64,000 nt of DNA from Candidatus Rubneribacter avistercoris (GTDB lineage: Bacteria > Actinomycetota > Coriobacteriia > Coriobacteriales > Eggerthellaceae): contig DXCU01000010.1 of NCBI GenBank assembly GCA_019115845.1, forward strand, positions 1 through 64,000, read 5' to 3'. Both the position numbers and the translations under genes were made by a program. The notes under the pieces were generated by a model, which was given only the letters and a program-made list of their open reading frames with translations, was not told the DNA's origin and did no database searches. The stretch's first letter is position 1, and every line of letters begins with the position of its first letter. This document shows, piece by piece, positions 766 through 58,093 of the stretch.

Positions 766-3700
766 CTACCTCTCGGCGCTCGAGCGCGGCTTTCTCCGCA
801 GAACGCGAATCGCCGCAGCGCACGCGGCCGCCGCAAAGGCAGCGAGCGCGCCAAGGATCGCTGCGAGCGAAGCCGACCCGTCGCCGGTAGAGGTCAACGT
901 TGAGCCGCCGTTGCCGAATGCGGAAGGCGGCGTGGGATTGTCTTGGGAAACCGAGGGCAGCCTCTCGGGAATCTTCTGGTCGATAGCCTGCAGCGTCACT
1001 CCCCCGTCCACGATGGCATAGCCCTCGTGCTCGGGGCCAAGGAGCGTGCCGTCCTCCTGCACGGAGAACGTGTAGGACCCCTCGATGAGCAGGTAGCCTT
1101 CCGGCGCGATCGTCTCCGCAACGGTGTACGACCGCCCGGCCGCAAGCTCGCCGACAAGGAGGATCCTGCCTTGGGCGTCTGTTTCGTAGGTGCGGACAGA
1201 CGGACCGTCCTCGCCAACGAACAGGCCGGTTATCTGGAACGTCGCGCCTTCGAGCGGCGCGCCCAGGGTGTTCGTTTTGAGCAGGGACGCCTGCACGGGC
1301 TCGTCGACGGCTTGGATGACCGCAACGCCGTCGGCGTCTGCGGAGACGGCGTACCGACCGCTGCCCCCGCGCCCGGCCGCAACTCCGTCCTGAGCGTCTT
1401 CCAGCAAGAACGTGCCGTCGGGACTCACCGTGATCACGGCCGATCCGGCCAGCTCGTAGCCGGCGGGGGCCCGCACCTCGGCCACCTCGTACGCCGAACC
1501 CGCCGCCAACAGCGCGGAGGGAAGGCTCGCCAGGCCGTCGGCCCCGGTGACCACCTCGACAGGTTCCGTGGAGCCGTCGGCGAAGGTACCGCCCTCGACG
1601 GGGGCCACCGTAAACGCAGCGCCTGCAAGCGGCTCGCCCTCGGAATCCGTCTTGGCGATGCGCGCTTCTATGGGCGCGTCGGCGGCGGCGATGGCCACGT
1701 TGCCATCAGGGGTGATGCGGAATCCGGGACTCCCGTCCGCAACCTCTTCGGCATCGGGCAGCGCCGCGATGGTGCCGTCGTCAGCCACCCTGAAGCCGAA
1801 CGAGCCTTCGATGAGCTTGTAGCCCGGCGCGGGCACCACCTCGGCCACCGTGTAGGACTCGCCGGCGACCAGCAGGGCCTCAAGGCGTGCAAGGCCCTGG
1901 TCGTCCGAGGTCAGAAGCTGTTCAGTGCTGCCGTCGGCGAACGCGCCCTCCACGGCGAACACGGCGCCCGCAAGCGGGGTTCCGTAGTCCGCAGAACTCA
2001 CTTTCTGCAGCCCCACGACCACCGGGACGTTGACGACCTGCACCGTGAACGCGTTGGCGCCGTCTTTGCGGTAGCCGTTGGGAACCGGCCCCTTTGCGAG
2101 GATAGCGCCGTCGTCGGCCACTTCGATGGACAGCGTGCCCTTTATGAGTTCGTAGCCGGCGGGAGCCCGCACCTCGACGATGCTATACGAGCCGCCGACC
2201 ACCAGCTGGCCCGCAAGCTCGGCCATGCCGTCGGAGTCGGTTTGCATCGTGACAGGATCCGTGGAACCGTTGGCGAAGGCGCTGCCGTCCGCAGGCGTCA
2301 CCTGGAACGTCGCGCCGGCAAGCGGGGTCTGCCCGTCCTCGGCCACCTTCGCTAGAGCAAGGCGCGTCTGCTGGTCGGCTGCCGTAAGCGTCACGCCGTC
2401 GCCAGCCACCTGGTAGCCGTCCGCGTGCGCCCCCATCTTGAGCGTGCCGTCGGGGTCCACCGTGAACGAGCACGTTCCGGCGATGAGCGAATAACCGGCG
2501 GGCGAGGCCGTTTCGGCCACCGCATACGTTTCGCCCACGATGAGGCCGGTGACCGCAGCCAGACCGTCGGTGTTAGTCGAAAGCGTTTTCACCGGCTCGG
2601 CGCTATCTGCGAACGAGCCTGTCACCTGGAACGTTGCGCCGGGAAGGGGCTTGTTGTCGGCGGCGTCCACCTTCTTGACGAACGCCTCCACCAGCTGGTC
2701 GGTCACCGTGACGGACGCCTGGGCGCCGTCAAGCGACCAACCATCGGGCGCCTCGCCCACCGTCGCCAGCGCGCCGTCGGCCTGCACCGTCACGCACAGC
2801 GTGCCGGACCGCACCTCGTAGCCGGAGGGCGCAGTTGTTTCGGCAATGTCATACTGGTCGCCCACGACCAGCTGGCCCGCCGGCAGCGCAGCGGTGCCGT
2901 CGGGGCCGGTCGTAAGCTCGCGCGCGGTGGTGGAGCCATCCGCGAACGCACTACCCTCGACGGGCGTCACGGCGAACACGGCTCCGGAGAGCGTCGCGAT
3001 GCCGTCGATGTTCGTCTTGCGCAAGGTCAGAGGCGTGGTGCTGGCGTTTTCCACAGTGCCGAGCGCCACCTCCCGCTCAACCGTGGTGCGGTCGATGGTG
3101 AACTCGTTGCTCGTCACCGCCGTGCCGCCCGTTTGGCCCACGTAGCCGTCGGCGGGCGTTGTCTCGACGAAACGGTACGTGCCCCACGCAAGGCCGGCCA
3201 CGCGCAGCGTGCCCTCATCGGCCGAGTCGCCTGCGCCGCGGGCGACCGTGTTGGAAGCCGTGCCGTGTTTTGCCGAGCCGTCCGTATCGAGAGCGGCTAC
3301 GTTGGAAGCCATGCTGGTCTCCGCCGAGTTGCCTGCGCTGCGGGTGGCTGCGTTGGAGGCCGCGTCGGTTTCCGCCGAGTTGCCTGCGTCGGGAGCAGCC
3401 GCATCGGAAGCCGTGCCGGTTTCCGCCGAGTCGCCTGCGCCGCGGGCGGCCATGTCGTAGGCTTTGCCCGTCTCCAGGCTGGTTGCGACGTCATTCCACG
3501 CGCCGTCGGCGTCCTTCTTTTGCAGCGAGAACACCACGCCGTTGAGCGGCGTGCCGTCATCGCTCGTCTTCGTGAGCGACGCGCTGCCGGTAAGCCGATT
3601 GTTGACCAGGCCGCCGGCGGCAATTTCGCCCTCGACCGTCGCGCTCAGTATCGTGCGGTCGCCAGCTTCTGCCAGGTTGAACGTCTTGCCATGGTCCTCG

Positions 3701-6700
3701 TTCTCAAGGACGAACGTCACCTTGAAGTTCTTGTCCACCTGGTAGCCTGTGTTCTCCACCTCGGTGAGCGTGTAGGTGCCTTTGCCGGAAAGGGCGAGCG
3801 TTAGTGTGCCGTTCTCGTCGGTTTTCTCCCGCGTGACAACCGCCGTGCCGCCGCTTGCGGGCGTGTAGGAAAGCTCGAACACCGCGCCTTCGATGCCCTC
3901 TTTCGACGTGCCGTCCAGCTTGGGCAGCGTGACCGTGGCAGTGAACAGGTCGTTCAGCAAGGTTTCGCCCTGATCGCCGCCGTTGTCGCACACGGTCACG
4001 GCGTTGTTCGTGCCGTGGTTGCCCTCCGCGTCGATGACGAAGGGGAACTTCGCCTCATTGCCGTTGGGCAGGTGGGCGTTGTCTGCAGTGCCCTTTTCCA
4101 GCAGGTAGTAGCTACCCGCCTGCAAGCCGTCTTCGAGCGTGCTGCGGCGATTGTCGGTTTTGCCGACGATCTCGATGTCGCTTTGAGAGGAGGAGAAGCG
4201 ACCGTCTTTGTCGGTGGTCAGGCTCTGCGCCATCAGTTCGTCGGCTCCGTCCGTGCCCGTGCCCTCGCGGTACAGGTCGAAAGTCGCGCCCGCTATCGCG
4301 TTTGCGGCGCCCGCGTTGCCGGCAAGCGCCTTTGCGAACGTGAAGTATCCTCGGAACACCGGATCGATCATCGTCACGGTGGCAAGATCGCCTTTGGTGG
4401 ACACAGCACCGTCCGTCGAGGATGTGAGGGCGCCGCTTGCGGAGAGGGTCACGCGCACGTCCTGCGCCCGCACGTGGTCGGCGGGAACGGCGCCCGTCTC
4501 ACGCACGAGGTAGTTGCCGGCCTTCAACCCGACGATGCAGCCCGCCGCCTCGTCTTTCATGAGGGTGAACTGCGAAATTTTTGCGTTGCCGCTGCCCGTT
4601 CCGTCTGGCCAGACCTCGTCGGTTTTGACACCGCTCGGGTTCGACCAGGTGGTCACGGTTCCGTTCGCGTCGCGCTGCCATACGGCGTAGGTTGCGGCTC
4701 CATCGGTGGACATCACAGCGAGTTCGATGCCGTTCAGTGTCTCACCGACGCCCCAGTCGTTTTTCTTGTCGAGCGTGAAGCGCGTGGCGACGTTGGTGAT
4801 GGTGCCGTCTTGCCCCGCCGCCGAGCTGCCGTTGCCGTACGTGGGATAGAACCCGCCGACGCTGCCTGCGACCTCTTTGACGCGATAGCTGTACTTTTTG
4901 CCATCGCCGTCGAATTCGGGCAGGCCGCTGTACGACCAGGCCCAAGTGCCGTTGCTGTTGGCGGTCCATGTCGGCTGCGGCATATCGTCGATATCAGGTT
5001 TCGCCGACTCCCATGTTTTGCCATCCGTGCTGCGCTCGATGGTCATCCGGGGACGGTCATTTTCGCCAAACTTGGGCGCGAAACCCGTGCCGTAATCGGT
5101 CCACGCTTTCGTGCCGCTTAGACTGGTGGTGTAAAGCGAGTTCGTGAACGTCTGCGAAGTGCCGTCGGTGCCAATGTCAACAGTCGAGCCGACCACGGCT
5201 TCTTCGGCGTTCTTCACCTCGGTACCGTTCACCACCTGGTAGCCGCCGGGGACGATCTCCACGGCGCGATAGAGGTAGTCGTTGCCGTCAGCATCCTTCG
5301 CGGGGAGGTTCTCGAACGTGACGGTTTGCTCGTTGACATCCGGGGCACCGGTGATGATGGCGAGGGTTGTCTCGTCGCCGACCCACTCCCACGTCTGTTT
5401 ATTGTCGTTGGAACGCTGGAGCCGGTACTCCACCTTCCAAAGCGAGTTGTTGTGCTCGTCGGTCGTCTTGTCGCGCAGGCCCCACTTGTTGCTCTCATCG
5501 TTCCAAGCTTTCGTCACCTTCAAGAAGGTGGCATCAAGCGTGTTGGTGATGGACGTGGTGCTGGTCATCGCCTTTGATGGATCGTCCACATCGCCTGTCC
5601 ATGTCGTGGTTTGCTTGCCGTCGTAGGAGGCGGTGGTGTGGTAGGTCACCTCATTGCCCGAGTCTTCGATGAACGACGAGGCGACTTCCACGTCGCCGAC
5701 CTTCGTCTCGATCACGCGATAGCGCACCTCGTAGACCGTAGAATTTGTGCCCTTGACCTGCATAGGCACGCTGCTCCACGTGCAACGCCAGTTGTTGCTC
5801 TCGTTCAACGTCTGCTCGATGGCGGGGAACCCGCCGGGCAGCTCCGCGATGCCCATGCCCTTGAACGCCTCATCGGCGCTCTGCCACTTGCTGTAGGAAG
5901 TATCTGCGTCGCCCTTCTTCTTGTACTGCGCTTGCAGCTTCACGGTGACGCTCTGGGGGCGCAGACCCCATTCATCGTCGCCGTCGTTTTCCCAGTTCTT
6001 GGTGGCGGTCACGGAACCTTTGAGGGCGTTTTTCAGCGCGGCTATCGTACCATGGTGCGTGCCGTCGGCCCCGGCGGTCGCCCCTCCCTTGCCGCTGGCC
6101 GAGCCGGTCACAACGCGGTAGGAGGTTTCCCCGCTGGGCAGCGTCTCTTTCACCGTGTACGTCCAGGCGCTGCCGTCGGGCGCCCACTGCTCAAGCCCGG
6201 TGATGGAGTACTCCCAGGTGCTGTCGGTGGGGTCGATCTCCGTCCAAGTCAGATATCCCTCGCCAGTGGAGCTGGTTCCCTGCAGAACGACGTCCTCCTC
6301 CTGCCCGCTCGCGGACTCCCGCGAAAGCGAGAGGTCTATGCTCGCAGGACGCGTGCCGAATGCGTTGCCGTAGTCGTTCCACTCCTTGGTTCCCTTAAGC
6401 GCGAGCTTCTCAGCGTCATACGCATTCGCGAACGTCACGTCAACCGTGTTGTTATCCGCAGCTTCAACCGAACCCGACACTGGGCCGCCCGCAAGTCCTG
6501 CATTCCCAAGCTCAAGATCGCCCAGGCCGACGCTCGTCGTGTAGCCGTTGATGCTCTTTTCCTCCACGTGGTACTGCCACAGCTGCCCGTTGGGCGCGTA
6601 GATGTCCAGGTCCTCGAACGTGTACGAGTCCTCACCAGCCGTAAACTCGTCAGCCTTGATAACGCCCGTCGCCACGCGCTCCGCCTCGCTCAACGAGCCG

Positions 6701-9700
6701 TTGTGCGTTTCGTACTGCCGGTACAGCACGAACTCGACATCCGGGTAGTGGTCACCCGCCGCGCGCCCGTCGAGCAGCTTCTTCACCGTCAGCTTGCCCT
6801 TGTCGGCGTCGTAGACGTTGTTGATGAAGAACGAGCCGGTGTTGCCGTGGCGGATGGTGAAGACCTTGTTGCTGTTGTTGCTGTCGTCGTCTTCGCTCCC
6901 ATCCTGCGAGTACTGCGAGAAGTCCACATCCCCCACTTCGTCCACGTCGATGTAGCCCGGCGTGCCCAGCAGCCCGACCATCACCTCGCGGGCGCGGTAC
7001 TCGTAGAGGTTGCCGTTCTCGTCGTACAGGGGCAGCGCGTCGCCGGTCGAATCCTCGGCGGTGTTGTCGCCCGTATGCTCGATGCGATAGGAGTACTGGT
7101 TGTTCCCGGCAGGCGTCAGCTGGGACATCCACGCTACGGCCCCGTTGCCAACGGGCACGAGCGAATCGCCCTCCCACTTCACGCGCAGCGCGGGCCACGA
7201 CGCTTCATCGCTCGCCAGCTTCTGCTGCAAAAACACCGTGATCTTCGGCAAGTCGTCCGCCGGGAACGACCCGGGCAGGTTGGTCCACAGCTTCGTGCCG
7301 TTGGCAACCACGTTGCCTGAAAGCGCATTGACGAACGTGCCGCCGGAGCGCAGGGCGTAATCGGTGCCCGCCGCCGTGTCGATGTCGGCGACGGCCTCGC
7401 CCGTCTTCACCTTGATGACGGCGGGGTCGCTGTCCTCCACGACCCCCATGCGGTCATCGGCGAACGTTACGTCGCCGTAGCCCAGGCTGGCGCCGTCGTT
7501 CATGAACTCTTCCACCGCGTAGTAGGTTATCTTGTCGCCCTGGCCGTCGTATTTGGGCAGCCCGCTGATGGTGCAGGTTTGCGAGTAATGCGAAGCCGCC
7601 TGCGAGGACGGAGTCCCGGCAGCCGCGATGTCGCCGTCCGGGCCCTCGCCTGCCTCCCGGTTCTCATCCGCCTCCCAGAGGTAGTGGATGTAGCCTTCAA
7701 CCGCCTTCGGCTTGTTGCCGGTTTCGGCGCTCACCTGGTACAGCGTGAGCGCGATGTCGGGACGCTGCTGCAGGTCCTCGTTCACGTAGACGTCCTTCCA
7801 CTCCTTGTGGAAGGTGGCGCTGGTGGAGCCCACGCGCTTGTTGGTCACCGTGTAAGTCTGCGTGTCGTGGAAGTGGCGGCCCCCCACCTTGTACTCGCCA
7901 ACCGAGACGGAGCTTGCGTAATCGCCGGAGGCGCCAACGAAGCGCTCCTTAACGGTGTAGTGCACCACCTCGCCGTCGGATTCGATGCCCTTGTACTTGG
8001 GCAGCCCGAAGAAGCCGTAGGTGGATTCCTTCTGCGCAGGGTCGATGTTGATCACGAGCGCTTTGCCGTCGTCCTCGACGGTTGCCACAAGCGGTTTGTT
8101 CGCATCGTCGTACAGCGGGATGTTGTTGCCGCCGTCCAGCTTCGCGTACGCCTGGCCGTCAGCATCGACGGAGAACACCGCCTTCGGATCGTCTACCGTC
8201 AGCTCAAGCCGCGCTTTCGGACGCTCGCCCTCGGAAGCGTCGCCGTCCAACCACTTCTTCTCCACCGTGAGGTCCACCAAGCCCAGCCGGCGGTTGTTCA
8301 CCGTGAACGTCTGCTTGCCGAAGGGACCGTTCTGGTCGGGGTGGTACGTGACCTCGTACACGTGGTTGTCGGTGGCAACGCGCTCACGATCGGGGTTGGT
8401 CCACCCTTCGTTGACCCAGCCCTCGTTCCCAAGCTCTGCGCTCTCGGCCTCGGTTTTGAGGTACACGGGGTATTTGGTCTGGCCGTCGAGGGATTCCAGG
8501 CGCGTCTCCTCCACGACGATGTCAGCCGTGGTCAGGCCATTCACCGGAACGGTGAACTCCAGGAACCAGCCGTTGGCCTCGGAAAGCGCCAGACCCTCGA
8601 AGATGACATCGCCCTCCTGGTACTTGAGCGTTCCATCGATTGTCGAGTACAGGTCGTGCTTCGCGCGCACGTCGATGAAGCAGGCCAGGCGGTGGGCCGA
8701 GTCCTCGCCGTCCGTCCAGTCCTTCATGAGGTGGAAATCGGTGCCCTCGCCGGGCCCGTAGCTGTTGGTGATGGTGGTGAGGTGCTGCTCGGCATTGTAA
8801 CTGCGCTGGCTGTCCCAACCGGCGGGCTCCACCTCCACCACGCGGTACAGGTAGCGCGCGCCCGTCTCCGAGTACAGCGGAAGCCCCGTGATCTCAAGAT
8901 AATAGGGGTCCGTCTCCTGCGCGCTCGGCACGGCGTCGCCGGGATCGCCCTCCAAGCTGTCATAGAAGCCGCTTGCCTTGTCGTCTGCCTGGCCGTCCAG
9001 CATGAACTCGCCCACCAGCGTGGTGCCCTGGTACACGCGCATGGTCACCTCGTCCTCGCGCGCCGGGTCGGGCTGCGAGGGAAGCCACTGGTCATCGTTG
9101 GGCGCGGGCTGCTGCCACAGTTTCTGCACGTTCTCGTAGGTGGTGTTGTCGAACGAGTTGACGATGGCGCCGGTGCCGGGATCAACCTGCGACGTGAACT
9201 CCACCTGCACGGGTTCGTCGCCGGACCCTTCGAGCGACTCCAGGCTCAGCGTGAACGTGGCGGTGCCGTCGCTGTTGCGCGTGAAGTTCGTTTCGGCGCC
9301 GTTTTGCGTGACGTTCGTCTCGACCCAGCGATACTCCAGCTCGTAGCCGTCCTCGTCGTATTTGGGATACGACCCCGTTATCTCCTGCGTGAGCATTTCG
9401 GCATTGAAGCCGCTCAGGTTTTGCGTGACGGGGGCGCCTTGGGAGTCCTTCGCGTCCGTCCACTCGCCGTTCGTCCCTACGCGGCGCTGCTGCAGCGTGA
9501 ACGTGCAGGTCACGTCTTCCAGCTGGTTTTGGAACGCCGCCACCGACCACGTCTTGACCTGCGAAACCGGCTTGGTGCCCGTCAGATGGTTCTCCACGGT
9601 GCCGCCGTTGTAGGTGAGGCGATCGGTGTCGGGGCGCGTCCACAGGGCGCCCACCGCCGCGCTGGGGTCGCGGTTCTGGTCGGTGTAGAAAACCTGCGTC

Positions 9701-12041
9701 TTCCCATCCGCGTCGTAGTAATTGGGCGCGGTGTCGTCGAGCAGCATCTCATAGTCCGGCAGGGTCGTGTCCTCGCGCATGCCGTACACGAAGGGGTAGC
9801 CGTCCGAATCGTACTTGTCCAGTTCAAGGTTGGGGTATTGCTCCCTGAGCAGATCTCCGAGGTTCACGGTGCCGTCGTCGGCCGCATCGTCGGGATCGAC
9901 GGTGACGGTGATGAAGCTGCCGTCTGCCGCGCGCACCTGCGAGGCGTTGGCGATGCTGCCGGGCGTGGCGCCGTCCGAGTAGCGCCACAGCGAGAACGTC
10001 ACGTTGCCGCGCTTGCTCTGGTTGTCGCCGTCGCTCCATTGTTTTGTGGCGCCGAACGTGGTGGTGCCCACGTGCGTGAACACGATGGTTCCGCCCGGAT
10101 AGGCGTAATCCACCACCGTGCCGTGGTTGGCGGACGCCGAGTTGTCGTAGGTGGCTTGGTAGTAGTCGTCATCCTCGTCATAGCCCTGGTAGATCAGACG
10201 GTACTCGATAGGCCTGCCGTCCACCGTGTACTGGGGCAGATCGGCGAACAAGGCCACGGTGTTGGGGTCTTTGTCGAACTCCCAGTCCCAACCGAACGCG
10301 CCGCCGAAGCTCTCCTGCTTTTCGAGCGAAGCGGAGTCGGTGCTCTCCTGCATGAGGTCTTCAAGGGCGTATGCGCCCTTCACCTGGTTGTCCACCACCA
10401 CTTCAACGCGGATGAGGTTGTTTTCGTCCCCCAGGCCAACAAGGGATTCGTCACCCACCTTGCCCGTGATGGTGAACCGCACCTCCGTCAGAAGCTGGAG
10501 GTTCTGCGTGCCCTCCGGGGACGCGGGGTCGCGGCGGTAATTTTCGTAGTCGGTGGCGTCGGCAAGCGACCATTCCACCGTGTAGGAGGTTTTCGAAGAC
10601 TCGTAGACAGGCTCGCCCGTGCCCGGCTCGTACAGCAGGTTGCCATCATCGTCCCGCGCTTGCGACCAGGTGGTTTGTACCACCTCTGTAGGCAGGCCGG
10701 TCGCCATGGAGAGGTAGGTTCCCACAGCCGTTTGCTCCGTGGACACGGAGGGAGCGTCTGTCATACCAAGGTAGAGGCGCACGTTCTCGGCGGTGGCCGG
10801 GATGCCTTCCGCCGGCGTGCCGTCCGTCGCGCCGATGAGGCCGCCCTCCCCCACGGACGCGACAGCTCCCTTCTGGTCGCGGATCGTGAAAGTCAGGGTC
10901 GGTTTCATGTCTCCGGGCTGGGGGCGGCTTGCGTTGTTGTTGTCGGCCCAGTTGGTGGTGAGGGTCTTGCTCTCGGTTGCAGTGCCGGGAACCCGGGTGG
11001 GATCGGGCGCGGCGGCGCGGGAGGCGAGGGCGTTCGCCGGGGCCGCGGCGGCCGGGTCGTCTTCGGCTTCGTCGTCGGCTTCGCCACCGGCCTCGTCGCC
11101 GGCCTCAGGATCGCCCTCCGGCTCTCCCCACAAGGCCAAAAGCTCGGTCGCAGAGGGAATTTTCAGCTCAACCGTGCGCTGCTCGCCGTCCTCGGCGGTC
11201 TGCACGATCCATTCGATCAGAGAGCCTTCGTCGGTTGCCAGAGCCGCGTCCACCGCCACGTCAAGCGACAGATGCGCGGAGAGCGCCCCGTCCGCAGCAA
11301 GCTCCACGCGCAGCACGCCGTCCTTGACGGTTCCAAAGGCCGCCTCGGCTGCGGGGTCGTCCGCCGAGGCTTCGGGGTCGTCAGTCGAGGTCGCAGGGTC
11401 GCCAGCCGAGGTAGCGGAGTCGTCCGTCGTGGCTGCGAGATCATCAGTTGGGGTTGCGGAGCTGTCCGCCGAGGCTTCGGGGTCGTCCGCCGAAGTCGCG
11501 GGCACGGTGCCCTCGCCGCCTGCGTACGAGACGCCTTCGGGCAGCGCGACGGAAAACCAGTCGCCCGCAAGCACGGCGTCGTCTTCTTCGGTGGGAGCAA
11601 GCTCGAACGAGATGTCGAGCGAAGCGGGAATGGAAGTAGGAAGCCCGTCGTCGGGAGCGTCTGCGGGGCGCTGCGCCAAGACGGAGAGGGAGGCATCAAG
11701 GACGAGGTCGTCAAGGGAGGCCGACCAGTCCTTCGGGTCGCGCGGCTCGGGGTTCGCCGCGCCGTCGTCCGAGGGCGTTTCGCCTGTCGGGGCATCGCCA
11801 AATAGCCACCCCCCCTCTGCAAGCGAATCGCCGGACGACTCGGGGTCATTGGTCAGAGAATTAGCTGCCCCCCCCCGTTAGGGAAATCGGGGGTCTTGTC
11901 GCCGGAGGTTTCGGGGGTGTCGGAATCGGCATAGGCAGCCAAGGAAAGCGGCATCATCGTTGCCACCAACAAACCGGCCATCACAACGCTGAAAGCGCGC
12001 CGACCAAGCGCGCGTATGCGTGCGCACCTCGCCTTTCTCAT
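766..12041 (-). CDS. Giant Cna_B/SpaA-repeat surface adhesin, frameshifted at a poly-G tract
   Basis: The start is the ATG at 12041, with AGGGAGG six bases upstream; a signal peptide follows (basic start, hydrophobic core, cleavage near AAYA-DS). After about 55 codons the frame hits G9 (11868-11876) and stops in this sequence. With G10 the frame runs on to 766, giving 3758 residues. The long frame then shows an Asp/Ala/Thr repeat, many Cna_B-type domains (about residues 660-2430, each with a K..W start and ending in a ..N-type isopeptide strand), and SpaA-like prealbumin domains with GATF and APAGYE motifs, six in close tandem at about 3000-3700. It ends with a sorting signal (non-canonical LTSTGDG, hydrophobic segment, RRK tail). 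Probable wall-anchored adhesin or stalk. The frameshift looks like an OFF state of a phase-variable gene; sequencing error in the homopolymer is the alternative. Confidence 0.88.
3219..3465 (-). repeat. 51-bp in-frame tandem repeats inside the giant adhesin
   Basis: About four to five copies of a 51-bp (17-residue) unit coding for peptides such as NAATRSAGNSAETSMAS. The array is inserted in a SpaA-like domain between the strand ending DMAARGAG and the one starting LRVAGLAWGTYRF. The copies differ by several residues, so the array is old or under weak selection. Confidence 0.8.
11340..11510 (-). repeat. 24-bp-type Asp/Ala/Thr repeats near the adhesin N-terminus
   Basis: Imperfect units of about eight codons (TSADDPEA, SADSSATP, TDDLAATT, DDSATSAG and so on) form a linker about 60 to 120 residues after the poly-G tract. 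Length changes in whole units would keep the frame. Confidence 0.65.
11868..11876 (-). repeat. Poly-G tract (G9), predicted phase-variation switch
   Basis: Nine C on the plus strand, read as AAC-GGG-GGG-GGG-C in the gene. As sequenced, translation ends four codons later (QLIL then TGA). Ten G restores 3758 codons; eight G gives a stop two codons after the tract. The context matches the tract at 55323-55332. Confidence 0.8.
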
Positions 12042-12317: not shown

Positions 12318-12492
12318 AAAAATTTTTTCAGTTGGTCAAAATCCGGGCAAATCGGGGGTTTTAGGCGGCCTCCAGCCGCCTTTTTGTGCACCTGAAAAAC
12401 TCCGACCTGGGATTTCTCTCCGAAAAGGAAGGACCTGCTTCCGCCAAACCCCCGATTCGCCCGGATTTTGACCAAATGAGGGAATTTTCCGT
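12318..12492. repeat. Palindromic module, arm type D, copy 2
   Basis: Arms GGTCAAAATCCGGGCAAATC (from 12334) and its inverse (ending 12473), extended outward by AT-rich AAATTTT-like flanks. Inside are a small GGCGGC..GCCGCC hairpin (12364-12380) and the core at 12403-12418 (CGACCTGGGATTTCTC exactly). Confidence 0.8.
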
Positions 12493-12633
12493 GTTGAACC
12501 AGAATTGGCAGAGGCCAGGCCGGTTCGCCGGGCAAAACCTTACCCGTCAGGCGGGGAGAGCCTTGCCCGGCGCCCGACCAGGGAAGGCTCGGTTCGAGAT
12601 TCGGCAAACACCGGTTCGTGTCAACGCCGGTTT
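12493..12633. repeat. Palindromic module, arm type A, copy 1
   Basis: Begins GTTGAACCAGAATTGGCA and ends with the inverse-type sequence CGTGTCAACGCCGGTTT. It is the reverse complement of the copy at 13113-13272, sharing GAACCGGTGTTTGCCGAATC near one end. It directly joins module D on its left and module C on its right. Confidence 0.75.
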
Positions 12634-12653
12634 CGCAGAGAGCGCGCCCGCGC

Positions 12654-12792
12654 GGCGAGAATCCACCGAAGTCGGAAGGTCTGGCCGCCCGCGCGCCTTC
12701 CCCGTCGTTGCCGCAGAACCGCCGACCTGGTGCTTTCCTGACGAAAGAAGGACGCTCGCAACGCAATCTTTCCGACTTCGGCGAATTCTCGC
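12654..12792. repeat. Palindromic module, arm type C, copy 1
   Basis: Arms GGCGAGAATCCACCGAAGTC and GACTTCGGCGAATTCTCGCC, with the core variant CGACCTGGTGCTTTCC at 12723-12738 between them. Same arm type as 34814-34963. Confidence 0.75.
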
Positions 12793-12811
12793 CACCGGAG
12801 GCCGTTTTTTG

Positions 12812-12914
12812 CCAAACCACCGTCGACCTTCCGGGCCCTCCCGCATGCGGCGGGCGACCCGCGGGGCGAGGCCCCATGCGGCGGGCCGGCTCATCCTGCG
12901 CCGACGGCGATTCA
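12812..12914. repeat. Degenerate arm type A module
   Basis: AACCACCGTCGACC at one end and CGGCGATTCAAC at the other, with GC-rich inverted sequence (GCATGCGGCGGGC and CCATGCGGCGGGCC) between. It is weaker than the other A copies. Confidence 0.5.
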
Positions 12915-12933
12915 ACGATGATCGAAAGAATCA

Positions 12934-13091
12934 TGGACAAAACAGGCCCTCATCCACACGGATTCGAGCGGAATCGGCCCGATCCGGACCCCTTTCAAGG
13001 AGGCGCGCGGAAAGGCCGCGCGTTTCCCCAGGTAGGCAGCTCGCGGTTTTGGTTATCCTCTTTTGAGGATGTGGATTGGGGGCCGTTTTGT
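12934..13091. repeat. Palindromic module, arm type E
   Basis: Arms GGACAAAACAGGCCCTCATC and the inverse of GGACAAAACGGCCCCCAATC (13072-13092). A core-like sequence in reverse orientation lies at 13022-13034 (TACCTGGGGAAAC on the minus strand). This is the only copy of these arms in the window. Confidence 0.65.
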
Positions 13092-13112
13092 CCAGAAGGG
13101 CCGCCGTTCGCT

Positions 13113-13272
13113 GTTAAATCACCGTTGACACGAACCGGTGTTTGCCGAATCTCGGGCCGGGCTTCCCCTGATTGGGCGTTTTGGAAAGCCCCGTCTGCCC
13201 GTCGGAAAGGGCTCTCCGAAGCGCCGGCGGGGCCTTGCCCGGCGGCCCGGCCCATGCCGATCCCGGTTCAAC
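13113..13272. repeat. Palindromic module, arm type A, copy 2
   Basis: Begins GTTAAATCACCGTTGACAC and ends CCGATCCCGGTTCAAC. It is followed after GGGGCGCTTTCGA by a type B module; the same A-B junction appears inverted at 35201-35230. Confidence 0.75.
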
Positions 13273-13287
13273 AGGGGCGCTTTCGAA

Positions 13288-13446
13288 AGTTGGTCACAAA
13301 CGTCGCCCTGTGGCACTCCGGGCGGTCGATTCGGCTCGCCAGCAAGCCGCACGATTCTCGCGACCTGGGGTTTCTCCAAGCGCGGAGGGCACAGAGGGCA
13401 GAAAACCGGCCCCGCGCGTGCCATAGGGTGCGGTTTGTGGCCAACT
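13288..13446. repeat. Palindromic module, arm type B, copy 1
   Basis: Arms AGTTGGTCACAAACGTCGCC and the inverse of AGTTGGCCACAAACCGCACC, each followed by CCTRTGGCAC. The core CGACCTGGGGTTTCTCC lies at 13361-13377. Same arms as 29417-29575 and 35048-35208. The remainder, 13447-13514, is GC-rich hairpin-forming sequence next to the kinase stop codon. Confidence 0.8.
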
Positions 13447-13514: not shown

Positions 13515-14834
13515 CTACCGTCCCAGCGCGCCGCCTTTGAGCACCAGCTTGACGCAGGTGCCGACGCCCAGCTCGCTTTCCACGTCCATATGGGTGCCCA
13601 TTCCGAAGTACCCGCAAATGCGGTCGTGCACGTTTTTCACGGCAATGCCCAGGCCCGTGGACGATTCCGGATGCAGGATGTTCTGCCGCGCCTCCTCGGT
13701 CATGCCCACGCCGTCGTCGGCCACGCGGATGACCACGTCGTCGCCGGCCACCTCGCCCTTCACCAAAATGGTCAGCTTCCCCTCCGAGGGCATGGCGTGG
13801 CGCACCGCGTTTTCCACCAGCGGCTGGATCAAAAACGGCGGCACCAGCATGTCGTCCACGCGCGGATCGATGTCCTCCTCCATGACCACGCGATCGGCTC
13901 CGAAACGCGCCACCTCGAACGTGAAGTACCGCCGCGTCTGCTCCATTTCCCGAGCGAACACAATGAGGTCGGCCGAGTCCTCCAACGTGCGACGGTAGAA
14001 CACGGCGAACTCCCGCAGCAGCTTGCGCGCGGTCACGGGGTCGGTGCGCACAAGCGAGGCGATGGTGTTGATGGTGTTGAACAGGAAATGGGGATTGATC
14101 TGGCTTTGCAGCATCTTCAGCTCCATGCGCGTGGCCAGCTGCGTCTGCTCTTCCAACGCGGCCGCGGCCATCTGCGTGGACAGGAGCTGGCCGAACCCCT
14201 CGGCCATTGATTTTTGCGTCTCGCTGATGTGGCTGGCGCGCCGGTAGTAGAACTTGAGCGTGCCAGCCACGGTGCGGCCGATGGTCAGTGGCACGATGAT
14301 GGCGGCCTTGATGCTGGAATGGCCCCGCGGAAAGCCTATGTCCTCGGGCGTGAACAGAATGCGCATCGTACCCTCCGCGATGGCGGCGTGCGTCGCATGC
14401 GTTCGGATGATGCTGCCGGTGGGGTTCGCCGACTCCTCGTGCCCGACGTAGGCCAAGATGCGCTCTTTGTCGGTGATGGCCACCGCGATGGCGGCCGTGG
14501 CGGGAAGCAGCAGCTGGCAGATCTTCTGCGCTGCGGCGGGATCCATGCCCTCGCTCATGCACGCGAGCGTTTGGCTTGCCAGCTTGAGCATGGCGTTGGA
14601 TTGGCGCGCGCGCACCGAGTCGGGGTCCATGTACAATCGGATAACCACCACAATGGACAGGGTGAACACCACGCCCGCGCAGGCCAGAGCCGCCATGTTG
14701 CGGTTCGGGCCCACCAGGTGCCAGATGAGCACCAGCCCCGAGAGCACGGCAATCGTGAACATGAGCATCTCGAGCGTGAAAAAGCGGGGCAAGGCCGCCC
14801 TTGCCGCCCGAGCCGCTTGAGCGTCTTCCTGCAT
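13515..14834 (-). CDS. LytS-type sensor histidine kinase (orphan)
   Basis: 439 residues from the ATG at 14834, which has GGAGGAG six bases upstream. Two or three N-terminal membrane segments (about 20-65) are followed by a GAF-like region, then a His_kinase domain with the phosphoacceptor motif QINPHFLFN and a HATPase domain (VENAVRHAM; DDGVGM; STGLGIAVKNV). This is the architecture of LytS/YehU-type kinases that normally signal to a LytTR regulator, but none is adjacent. It lies 84 bp downstream of the TauE/SafE gene on the same strand and is probably co-transcribed with it. The signal is unknown; control of transport or wall functions is inference from family and neighbours. Confidence 0.9.
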   Translation of the reverse strand: MQEDAQAARAARAALPRFFTLEMLMFTIAVLSGLVLIWHLVGPNRNMAALACAGVVFTLSIVVVIRLYMDPDSVRARQSNAMLKLASQTLACMSEGMDPAAAQKICQLLLPATAAIAVAITDKERILAYVGHEESANPTGSIIRTHATHAAIAEGTMRILFTPEDIGFPRGHSSIKAAIIVPLTIGRTVAGTLKFYYRRASHISETQKSMAEGFGQLLSTQMAAAALEEQTQLATRMELKMLQSQINPHFLFNTINTIASLVRTDPVTARKLLREFAVFYRRTLEDSADLIVFAREMEQTRRYFTFEVARFGADRVVMEEDIDPRVDDMLVPPFLIQPLVENAVRHAMPSEGKLTILVKGEVAGDDVVIRVADDGVGMTEEARQNILHPESSTGLGIAVKNVHDRICGYFGMGTHMDVESELGVGTCVKLVLKGGALGR

Positions 14835-14918
14835 ACTCTCCTCCTGACCAGGGTGCGCCGCCCGGCAAGCGCCCAGCATGGCGGCGGCGCGTGCGCAGCG
14901 CCGTCGCCGTTTCGTCCG

Positions 14919-29174: not shown

Positions 29175-29405
29175 TTAAACCGCCGCCGGCTCGGACCCGC
29201 GCCGACGGCGATCCGGCAGGGGCCGCACGCATCCGCCGTCAAACCAGGATTGGCATGAACCCGCGCTCGTCGGACCGCAGGCCGAACACCCCTTTGACCA
29301 GGTGATTCGAAAGCCCCTTCCCGCCCAGCAGGCGGGGTTCTCCGAAACACCGGTGGGGCTTTGCTCGGCAGGCCAACCGGGCCTATGGCAATCCCGGCTT
29401 AACAG
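29175..29405. repeat. Arm type A modules, two adjoining copies
   Basis: GTTAAACCGCCGCCGGCTCG starts a short degenerate copy (about 29175-29240). A fuller copy (29238-29405) runs from GTCAAACCAGGATTGGCATG to ATCCCGGCTTAACAG. The latter is followed by a type B module, in the same order as at 13113-13446. Confidence 0.65.
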
Positions 29406-29416
29406 CCCCCCGCGCG

Positions 29417-29575
29417 AGTTGGTCACAAAACGCGCCCTATGGCACTCCGGACGCCCGATCCGGCGCATCGGCGGGCTGCGCGATTTCCGCGACCTGGGAT
29501 TTCTCCGGGCGCGAAGGGCGCGGAGGGCGGAAAGGCGGCCCCGCGCGTGCCACAGGGCGTAGTTTGTGACCAACC
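29417..29575. repeat. Palindromic module, arm type B, copy 2
   Basis: Arms AGTTGGTCACAAAACGCGCC and the inverse of TTGGTCACAAACTACGCCC, both followed by a TGGCAC box. The core CGACCTGGGATTTCTCC lies at 29490-29506. Another A-like end (CGCGTCAACGCCTGTTTAAC) follows at 29612-29631. Confidence 0.8.
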
Positions 29576-34749: not shown

Positions 34750-34813
34750 GTTGAACCACCGCTGACACGAACCCCGCCGGAGGCGGTTCGGCGGGGGCCG
34801 TCCGCGCTTGCTT
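34750..34813. repeat. Arm type A half-module
   Basis: Starts GTTGAACCACCGCTGACACG and contains CGCCGGAGGCGG; a near copy is at 34981-35047. The two flank the type C module in the same orientation. Confidence 0.6.
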
Positions 34814-34963
34814 GGCGAGAAATCACCGAAATCGGAAACTCAACGGCGCCAACAACGCGCGGAGAGAAATTTCGGCAGACCGTGACCTGGCCTTTTCTTG
34901 AGCGAAAGCGTCCGTCAGCGCCCCATGCGCCGCCCAACCTTCCGATTTCGGTGATTTCTCGCC
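34814..34963. repeat. Palindromic module, arm type C, copy 2
   Basis: Arms GGCGAGAAATCACCGAAATC and GATTTCGGTGATTTCTCGCC are perfect inverses, extended by GGAA/TTCC. The core variant TGACCTGGCCTTTTCTT lies at 34883-34899. Confidence 0.8.
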
Positions 34964-35047
34964 ATCCGGAGCCTCTTCCGCTGTTGAACCACCGCTGGCA
35001 CGGACCCCGCCGGAGGCGGCTCAGCGGGCGGGCGGGGGGTCGACCGC

Positions 35048-35208
35048 AAGTTGGCCACAAAACGCGCCCTGTGGCACGCCCGGGGCCGCCTTTCCGCCCT
35101 CCGCGCCCCTCGCGCCCGGGGAAATCCCAGGTCGCGGGAATCGCGCGGCCCGCCGGCGCGCCGGATAGGCCGTCCGGAGTGCCATAGGACGTCGTTTGTG
35201 ACCAACTT
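35048..35208. repeat. Palindromic module, arm type B, copy 3 (core inverted)
   Basis: Arms AAGTTGGCCACAAAACGCGC and the inverse of AAGTTGGTCACAAACGACGT, with a TGGCAC box on each side. The core lies in reverse orientation at 35119-35134 (CGACCTGGGATTTCCC on the minus strand), opposite to copies 1 and 2. Confidence 0.8.
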
Positions 35209-35220
35209 GCGGAAGCGCCC

Positions 35221-35396
35221 CTGTTGAACCAGGGCCGGCAGAGGCCGAGCCGGCCCGTCGGGCAAAGCCCCACTGGCGCTTCGGAAGGCCCCGCCCGACG
35301 GGCAGCCGGCGGGCGGGGCCTTCCGAAGCGCCCGGCCAGGGGAAGCCCGGCTCGAGGGTTGGCCGGCATGGGTTCGCATCAATCCTGGTTTAACAG
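35221..35396. repeat. Palindromic module, arm type A, full copy
   Basis: Ends CTGTTGAACCAGGGCCGGCA and TGCGAACC../TCCTGGTTTAACAG are inverted. Inside is a long hairpin, GCGCTTCGGAAGGCCCCGCC (35276-35295) with its inverse near 35309-35332. A sigma-70-type promoter starts 20 bp further on. Confidence 0.75.
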
Positions 35397-57905: not shown

Positions 57906-58093
57906 CGCGAAATTTTCCTGAGATGGTCAAAATCCCGGCGAGTCGGGGGATTTTTAGGGCAAAACGCGGACGCGTTTATGAGCGCCCAAGAGAAAGGCCA
58001 GTTCACAGCTTCCCGCTTCATCAGAATGCCCTTCCGTACGTGGCGGAAAGCCCCGACTTGCCAAGATTTTGACCATCTCAGGAAAATTTCGCG
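57906..58093. repeat. Palindromic module, arm type D, copy 3 (longest arms)
   Basis: Arms of about 42 bp: GCGAAATTTTCCTGAGATGG, then TCAAAATCCCGGCGAGTCGG, with the inverse ending at 58093. The core is degenerate and in reverse orientation at 57990-58005 (TGAACTGGCCTTTCTC on the minus strand). Confidence 0.8.

Follow-up and report, generated by a model that had tools for sequence, protein, structure and literature searches.

What fills the 1,129-bp gap between a giant adhesin gene and a histidine-kinase gene in Candidatus Rubneribacter avistercoris, and how was it put together? The window analysed, which contains this gap, is a stretch of 64,000 nucleotides (G000:C43:1-64000) from a genome assembly of 3.2 Mb in 104 contigs, here called G000. 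As a preliminary description of this DNA had claimed, the space between the two genes contains no predicted gene, and three scanned long open reading frames that overlap the gap gave no Pfam match. The modules and their order, D-A-C-A-E-A-B, were also described correctly: seven modules are present (Table 1), and every one of them belongs to a dispersed family that recurs in the genome. When used as a query, the gap gave 114 matches in G000, far more than chance would give, and the families matched also recur in G001 and G002, two genomes of the same genus. The A-B pair had been reported to be repeated at 29238-29575 and inverted at 35048-35396; both copies are real, with 75% identity to 13181-13445 and 77% identity to 13108-13446, respectively. 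Two kinds of element make up the gap: palindromes of families B, C, D and E, which we call phased-site elements (PSEs), and a MITE, A. The spacers along the chain measure 12, 10, 10, 11, 12 and 12 bp (the two around the degenerate middle A by hand), and the term "nested" is not quite apt for a chain in which PSEs and A elements alternate across such short spacers. We read the island as an alternating chain in which a looped complex on the PSE would draw the A transposase, and give this reading a probability of about 0.6.

Table 1. Features of the gap, its flanking genes and other PSEs in the window. Paired numbers are the distances in bp from the 5' end to the core and from the core to the other end.
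Feature	Position	Strand	Remarks
Adhesin open reading frame	766-11679	minus	3,637 aa; 7 SpaA and 3 Cna_B stretches
PSE family D, 142 bp	12333-12474	plus	TGG...CCA palindrome; core GACCTGG from 12404, 71 bp from left end and 71 to right
Spacer D/A1, 12 bp	12475-12486
A1, MITE of 148-bp type	12487-12642	plus	TIR to TIR 12491-12638, plus 4 nt each side
Spacer A1/C, 10 bp	12643-12652
PSE family C, 142 bp	12653-12794	plus	left end CGG instead of TGG; core at 12724 (71/71)
A', degenerate middle A	about 12805-12922		ends hand-aligned; 10 bp from C, 11 bp from E
PSE family E, 161 bp	12934-13094	minus	core variant TACCTGG, minus strand, from 13034 (60/101)
Spacer E/A2, 12 bp	13095-13106
A2, longer-type MITE	13107-13278	minus	164 bp TIR to TIR, plus 4 nt each side
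Spacer A2/B, 12 bp	13279-13290
PSE family B, 153 bp	13291-13443	plus	core at 13362 (71/82)
Histidine-kinase gene	13515-14879	minus
PSE family D, 131 bp	135-265	plus	60/71
PSE family B, 153 bp	29420-29572	plus	71/82; A element precedes
PSE family C, 152 bp	34813-34964	plus	71/81
PSE family B, 153 bp	35052-35204	minus	71/82; beside A (inverted A-B); found at a laxer cut-off, below that of the main scan
PSE family D, 152 bp	57924-58075		no GAYCWGG match; core variant CCAGTTC

Bacterial MITEs are short, have conserved inverted ends and target duplications, and occur in many copies. A is a MITE with 8-bp target duplications. Its conserved terminal inverted repeats are centred on CTGTTAAACCANNNTTGACA, with 70 matches in G000 (36 + 34), 64 in G001 (31 + 33) and 11 in G002 (5 + 6), and none for the backward-pattern control. 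The flanks agree in at least 7 of 8 bp in 22 of the 62 copies with both ends, compared to a mean of 0.75 and a maximum of 4 in shuffled pairings, and the duplication is exact in 16 copies. The description of A as "half-palindromes" has to be abandoned, as A1, A2 and A' are whole elements with two inverted ends. The lengths of A have modes at 148 and 168-170 bp with a wide spread, unlike those of the PSEs, and are only weakly periodic on the lattice described below (R 0.55). At about 150-170 bp, A is too short for a transposase gene. A-type ends face each other at insertion-sequence size at G005:C1:2878350-2879459 (1,110 bp apart) and at G058:C1:186401-187937 (1,537 bp apart); both are candidate autonomous elements. 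The A end pattern is present in 13 of 60 genomes of the family, with 28 matches in G058 and none for the control, and its 11 viral matches are near our chance expectation. The A ends also resemble the integron attC consensus, GTTRRRY/RYYYAAC; an attC assignment was dropped because of the exact 8-bp duplications.

A PSE is a palindrome with TGG...CCA ends and a central GAYCWGG core, a motif that was picked after viewing the elements of the window. Apart from B, C, D and E, families F, H, B1 and X were recognised elsewhere; end sequences vary among families and genera, and the interiors of copies look unlike. The main scan required TGG...CCA ends and 24-nt arms with at least 19 matches, and was run on stretches fetched independently of similarity. 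In G000, G001, G002, G005, G010 and G021 it found 33, 14, 9, 4, 0 and 0 palindromes, versus 3, 0, 0, 0, 0 and 0 in mononucleotide-shuffled controls; five more genomes gave two in G006, one in G009 and none in G007, G014 or G024 (G005-G010, G014, G021 and G024 belong to the same family as G000). PSEs are thus present in three other sampled genera (G005, G006 and G009). The pooled set comprises 63 palindromes from 2.31 Mb of 11 genomes. The core, with matches less than 45 bp from an end ignored, is carried by 45 of these 63, compared to a mean of 2.2 and a maximum of 7 for shuffled interiors. An alignment of 39 B copies shows mostly no length change, long inverted ends and a conserved centre, with conservation higher in the ends and core (0.93, 0.94 and 0.91) than in the spacers (0.86 and 0.83). 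A paired-end search for C, D, E and F returned lengths nearly all near 131, 142, 152 and 162 bp.

The helical repeat of DNA, one turn of the B form, is 10.5 bp. In the PSEs, two inverted ends and a central core lie on a lattice of this period, despite differing end sequences and spacers. End-to-core distances cluster at about 50, 60, 71, 81, 91 and 101 bp. They measure 60-61, 70-71 or 81-82 bp on the 5' side of the core and 60, 70-71, 81-82 or 91 bp on its other side; a period of 10.5 bp fits both sides best, with Rayleigh R values of 0.97 and 0.96, so that the core is phased with each end separately. There are 59 elements in the range of 120-175 bp, of which 58 have total lengths of 130-132, 141-142, 151-153 or 161-163 bp and one is 149 bp long; this length test excludes four palindromes of 94, 102, 114 and 117 bp. 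Part of the sampled copies share a common descent. When collapsed to one entry per family and value (n = 20, 14 and 28), each of three tests against a uniform distribution gave P ≤ 5e-5 (20,000 simulations), where the family grouping that corrects for descent is crude (8 of 24 mismatches). Family H, with TAG/CTA ends and found beside A elements in G001 and G002, was outside the main test: of its 18 copies, 17 are 120 bp long and one is 119 bp, and the 14 copies with the motif have distances of 50/70, except one with 50/69. Of 15 copies of family E, which has the TACCTGG variant core, the 7 in which this motif is found have distances of 60/101, 60/91 or 60/102. The lattice also fits the PSEs of G005, G006 and G009, whose end sequences are different. 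A length quantum of 10.5 points to duplex DNA and not to an RNA hairpin; a hairpin following the core (TTTC...GAAA), seen by eye in many copies, was dropped on this account. Separately, we observed palindromes that are off the lattice. One family, GTGACAGGGGGACGGGGATA..., is 86-135 bp long and has no core (L199:18550, L200:1467, L200:3427, L271:7796 and L273:9689); others have TTGG(C/T)GAAC-type ends and measure about 135 and 128 bp by hand (L219:13264 and L228:11388).

The two kinds of element meet at a fixed distance. Looking outward from A with ten end sequences, a PSE end was found within 60 bp in 120 of 455 A-end contexts, a pool that includes loci fetched by similarity; the distance is exactly 12 bp in 82 of these 120 and 10-13 bp in 99. 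In stretches chosen without regard to similarity, a PSE end lies 10-13 bp away from 17 of 40 A ends in G000, 7 of 27 in G001 and 4 of 20 in G002, a count that allowed PSE ends with up to 8 mismatches and so includes chance matches. Under stricter PSE detection, a random intergenic point falls within 30 bp of a PSE with P = 0.007. Surviving duplications usually begin 4 bp from the PSE, and the 12-bp offset is therefore the 8-bp duplication plus 4 bp. Among the 22 duplication-bearing A copies, 15 have a recognised PSE 11-12 bp away and 7 have none nearby. At locus L185, several A elements have landed successively on one 8-bp site (AGGCGATC, three times). PSEs flank both sides of 6 of 60 A copies, one of which has a duplication. 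The junctions thus look conserved because A chooses its target at a fixed distance beside PSEs. Randomly placed junctions, the outcome that the preliminary description had named as contrary to its reading, were not seen.

The lattice might have another origin if PSEs were ordinary MITEs of several transposase families and their phasing a fossil of transposition, the duplications having decayed or never been made. This supposes that short transposons move well only with their ends in helical phase, and passages of PMC3464196 do cite effects of helical twist on the end-to-end distance of transposons. The inverted ends, dispersed copies and fixed lengths of PSEs resemble those of MITEs. We nevertheless think this origin unlikely. 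Across 56 PSEs there is no consistent flanking repeat, only chance-like 6-7-mers at varying offsets, and hence no target duplication in the elements tested, yet neighbouring A copies keep exact 8-bp repeats. The core is phased with each end separately, and the lattice holds across genera whose ends differ. A long element with B ends is absent from G000, and no autonomous PSE was found among the unpaired ends for eight end sequences or families in 2.06 Mb of six genomes.

The genomic setting of the PSEs bears on a second account. All 53 placeable PSEs lie outside predicted genes and three more are at stretch edges, as judged with gene calls from a simple codon model in mostly draft genomes; their gene context shows no clear departure from that of baseline gaps. 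The intergenic position, the phase and the size of 120-163 bp would suit a wrapped or looped complex, and PSEs could be where a protein of architectural or regulatory function loops the DNA, by gyrase-like wrapping, in a repressor loop or as a nucleoid protein, without any role in recombination; A would then exploit them as bound landing sites free of genes. Against this, sister genomes differ strongly in which PSE families they carry and in how many copies, the B end pattern having 82 matches in G000 and none in G001 or G002, and there is no bias towards the leading strand (17 versus 22) or for gene direction (11 versus 16). Such an architectural or regulatory role apart from recombination is improbable, in our judgement.

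The distribution of the elements is patchy. An extended core pattern occurs in 29 of 60 genomes of the family, well in excess of its backward control in G000 (46 versus 2), G001 (28 versus 1) and G005 (16 versus 1), with counts near background in most others. PSEs are present at orthologous loci in G000 and G001, which suggests that they move seldom; one PSE of G005 is missing from the corresponding gap of G002. Close relatives of the kinase are encoded by Paraeggerthella, Eggerthella sinensis, Gordonibacter sp. An230, Rubneribacter, Slackia, Adlercreutzia and one further bacterium, which very probably places the host in the Eggerthellaceae. The surroundings of the kinase gene in eight named relatives gave no match to the gap elements, and a true empty site was not found because the genes neighbouring the kinase differ. 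Near the kinase gene of Adlercreutzia agrestimuris we noted an unrelated 110-bp palindrome (L028:7313-7422) with three CCGATTAGGCGG-like motifs. Searches of mobile DNA gave no plasmid match (for B, the family searched) and no phage match, and the exact core was not found in viral contigs.

A reading of PSEs as structured RNAs or transcription terminators is very improbable. The single-strand fold of B, calculated for both strands with DNA parameters, has a z-score of -4.5 on the plus strand and -1.9 on the minus strand, but Rfam gave no match in the window at the gathering threshold and none in the gap at E ≤ 0.5. Mismatches counted by hand over pairs 4-36, the outer stem of B, are 28 of the G.U type and 32 of the A.C type, near-equal numbers that favour neither strand; covariation in B made no case for RNA either, and the 10.5-nt length quantum again suits duplex DNA. 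Insertion at terminators was also considered and dropped: some C outer arms are complementary, one of them followed by CTTTTT, and most have no T run. A link to parS was rejected as well, with a parS-like site sharing the gap of 0 of 32 PSEs in G000, 0 of 11 in G001 and 1 of 9 in G002. The 16-mers TGTTTCACGTGAAACA, which we take to be parS-like, are in themselves unusually frequent and mostly intergenic in loci L194-L285 (for example L210, L223, L243, L277 and L285); with at most one mismatch, G000 has 21 in 863 kb, G001 has 14 in 400 kb and G005 has 20 in 300 kb. Two of the four sampled TGG palindromes of G005 (L283:4304-4433 and L284:14877-15006) are about 20 bp from such a site.

Insertion beside PSEs does not account for the whole island. 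In the window, neither A1 nor A2 has flanks that pair up as a duplication, and joining the pieces must therefore also have taken rearrangement or the movement of composites. The C-A'-E block recurs at G000:C24:16736-17219 with 97% identity over 484 bp. B is often located inside an A-ended unit; three A-B-A composites, with lengths of 255, 344 and 349 bp, each carry one 8-bp duplication at their outer ends. These perfect composites do not adjoin a PSE, and a shorter A without B, at L140, also has an exact repeat. The composites and the duplicated C-A'-E block indicate that PSEs can be carried along. It is scarcely credible that block duplication and recombination between repeats built the island as a patchwork with no targeted insertion at all, since the recurring block and the non-matching A flanks fit such a history but two species have exact 8-bp duplications at a distance of 4 bp from PSEs, and these PSEs belong to different families. 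The preliminary description had argued for a composite unit that arose either through repeated insertion or through copying as a block. Repeated insertion stands, sharpened to a fixed offset, and block copying stands in places; a single composite unit does not, because four palindrome families with unrelated ends are linked by one MITE family. The data support a history in which targeted A insertions next to PSEs built most of the island and the copying of blocks contributed some of it.

For the targeted insertion, we propose the following mechanism. A protein complex would contact the core and the two ends of a PSE from the same side of the helix, folding the element into a small loop like that of a synapse in recombination or transposition. 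This complex would be recognised by the A transposase, which would insert its element at a fixed position just outside. Such an insertion would not consume the landing site, allowing more A copies to land, and A-PSE-A stretches may sometimes be moved or copied as a block, spreading PSEs and generating islands like D-A-C-A'-E-A2-B. The presence of a recombinase, rather than an architectural protein, in the PSE complex is the weakest step of this proposal. Several points count against the overall reading: PSEs do not move often, some duplication-bearing A copies have no recognised PSE nearby, no protein has been linked to the PSEs, and neither recombination nor excision was observed.

Several known systems share features with these elements. 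A resembles bacterial MITEs in being short, with inverted ends, target duplications and many copies, and differs in its fixed position beside another repeat; PSEs differ from MITEs in having no duplications. REP and BIME sequences are 20-40-nt palindromes with a RAYT transposase, intergenic, multicopy and arranged in mosaic clusters. PSEs are likewise intergenic, palindromic, multicopy and found in mosaic clusters, but they are larger (120-163 bp), have a phased core and change their ends between families. For the targeting of A, the best functional parallel is the res-site hunters of the Tn5053/Tn402 type, as portrayed in passages of PMC7765201. According to these passages, such transposons insert preferentially at a multi-part recombination site and nest repeatedly, require a protein bound at the target and use the resolvase of the target site; they produce 5-bp direct repeats and encode Tni proteins (PMC7765201). 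A likewise lands repeatedly, at a fixed 12-bp offset beside PSEs, which could conceivably be res sites. Each PSE has three conserved sites in helical phase, and these may be protein-binding sites like those in the res site of a resolvase. A differs from these transposons in its 8-bp duplications and in its length of about 150-170 bp, too little for a transposase gene; with a duplication of 8 bp and not 5, it is not a member of Tn5053/Tn402.

The length lattice of the PSEs finds its best parallel in the internal eliminated sequences (IES) of Paramecium, which the passages of PMC3464196 concerned describe as short elements with a length periodicity of about 10 bp, explained by end-to-end looping. 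PSEs share the shortness and the periodicity. In contrast, IES are eukaryotic, bounded by TA and present as unique copies, and those passages describe no doubly phased central core (PMC3464196). The ends of PSEs are TGG/CCA, or TAG/CTA in family H, and not TA.

Searches of an open-licence library turned up no account of elements like these. Tentatively, and with somewhat less than an even chance of being right, we suggest that PSEs represent a kind of bacterial DNA element not described before, occurring in several Eggerthellaceae genera. Their two inverted ends and central core would be held whole helical turns apart, with almost all of the remaining sequence, and the end sequences too, free to vary, and they may serve as looped assembly sites for a site-specific recombination machine and as fixed-position landing pads for a MITE. 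If so, they would be a natural helical-twist experiment in bacteria, in which spacing is kept to about one base as the sequence turns over, and this conserved spacing would point to a DNA-bound machine still to be identified. A would be a clear case of a MITE aimed at a fixed position beside another repeat, which would explain regular repeat islands.
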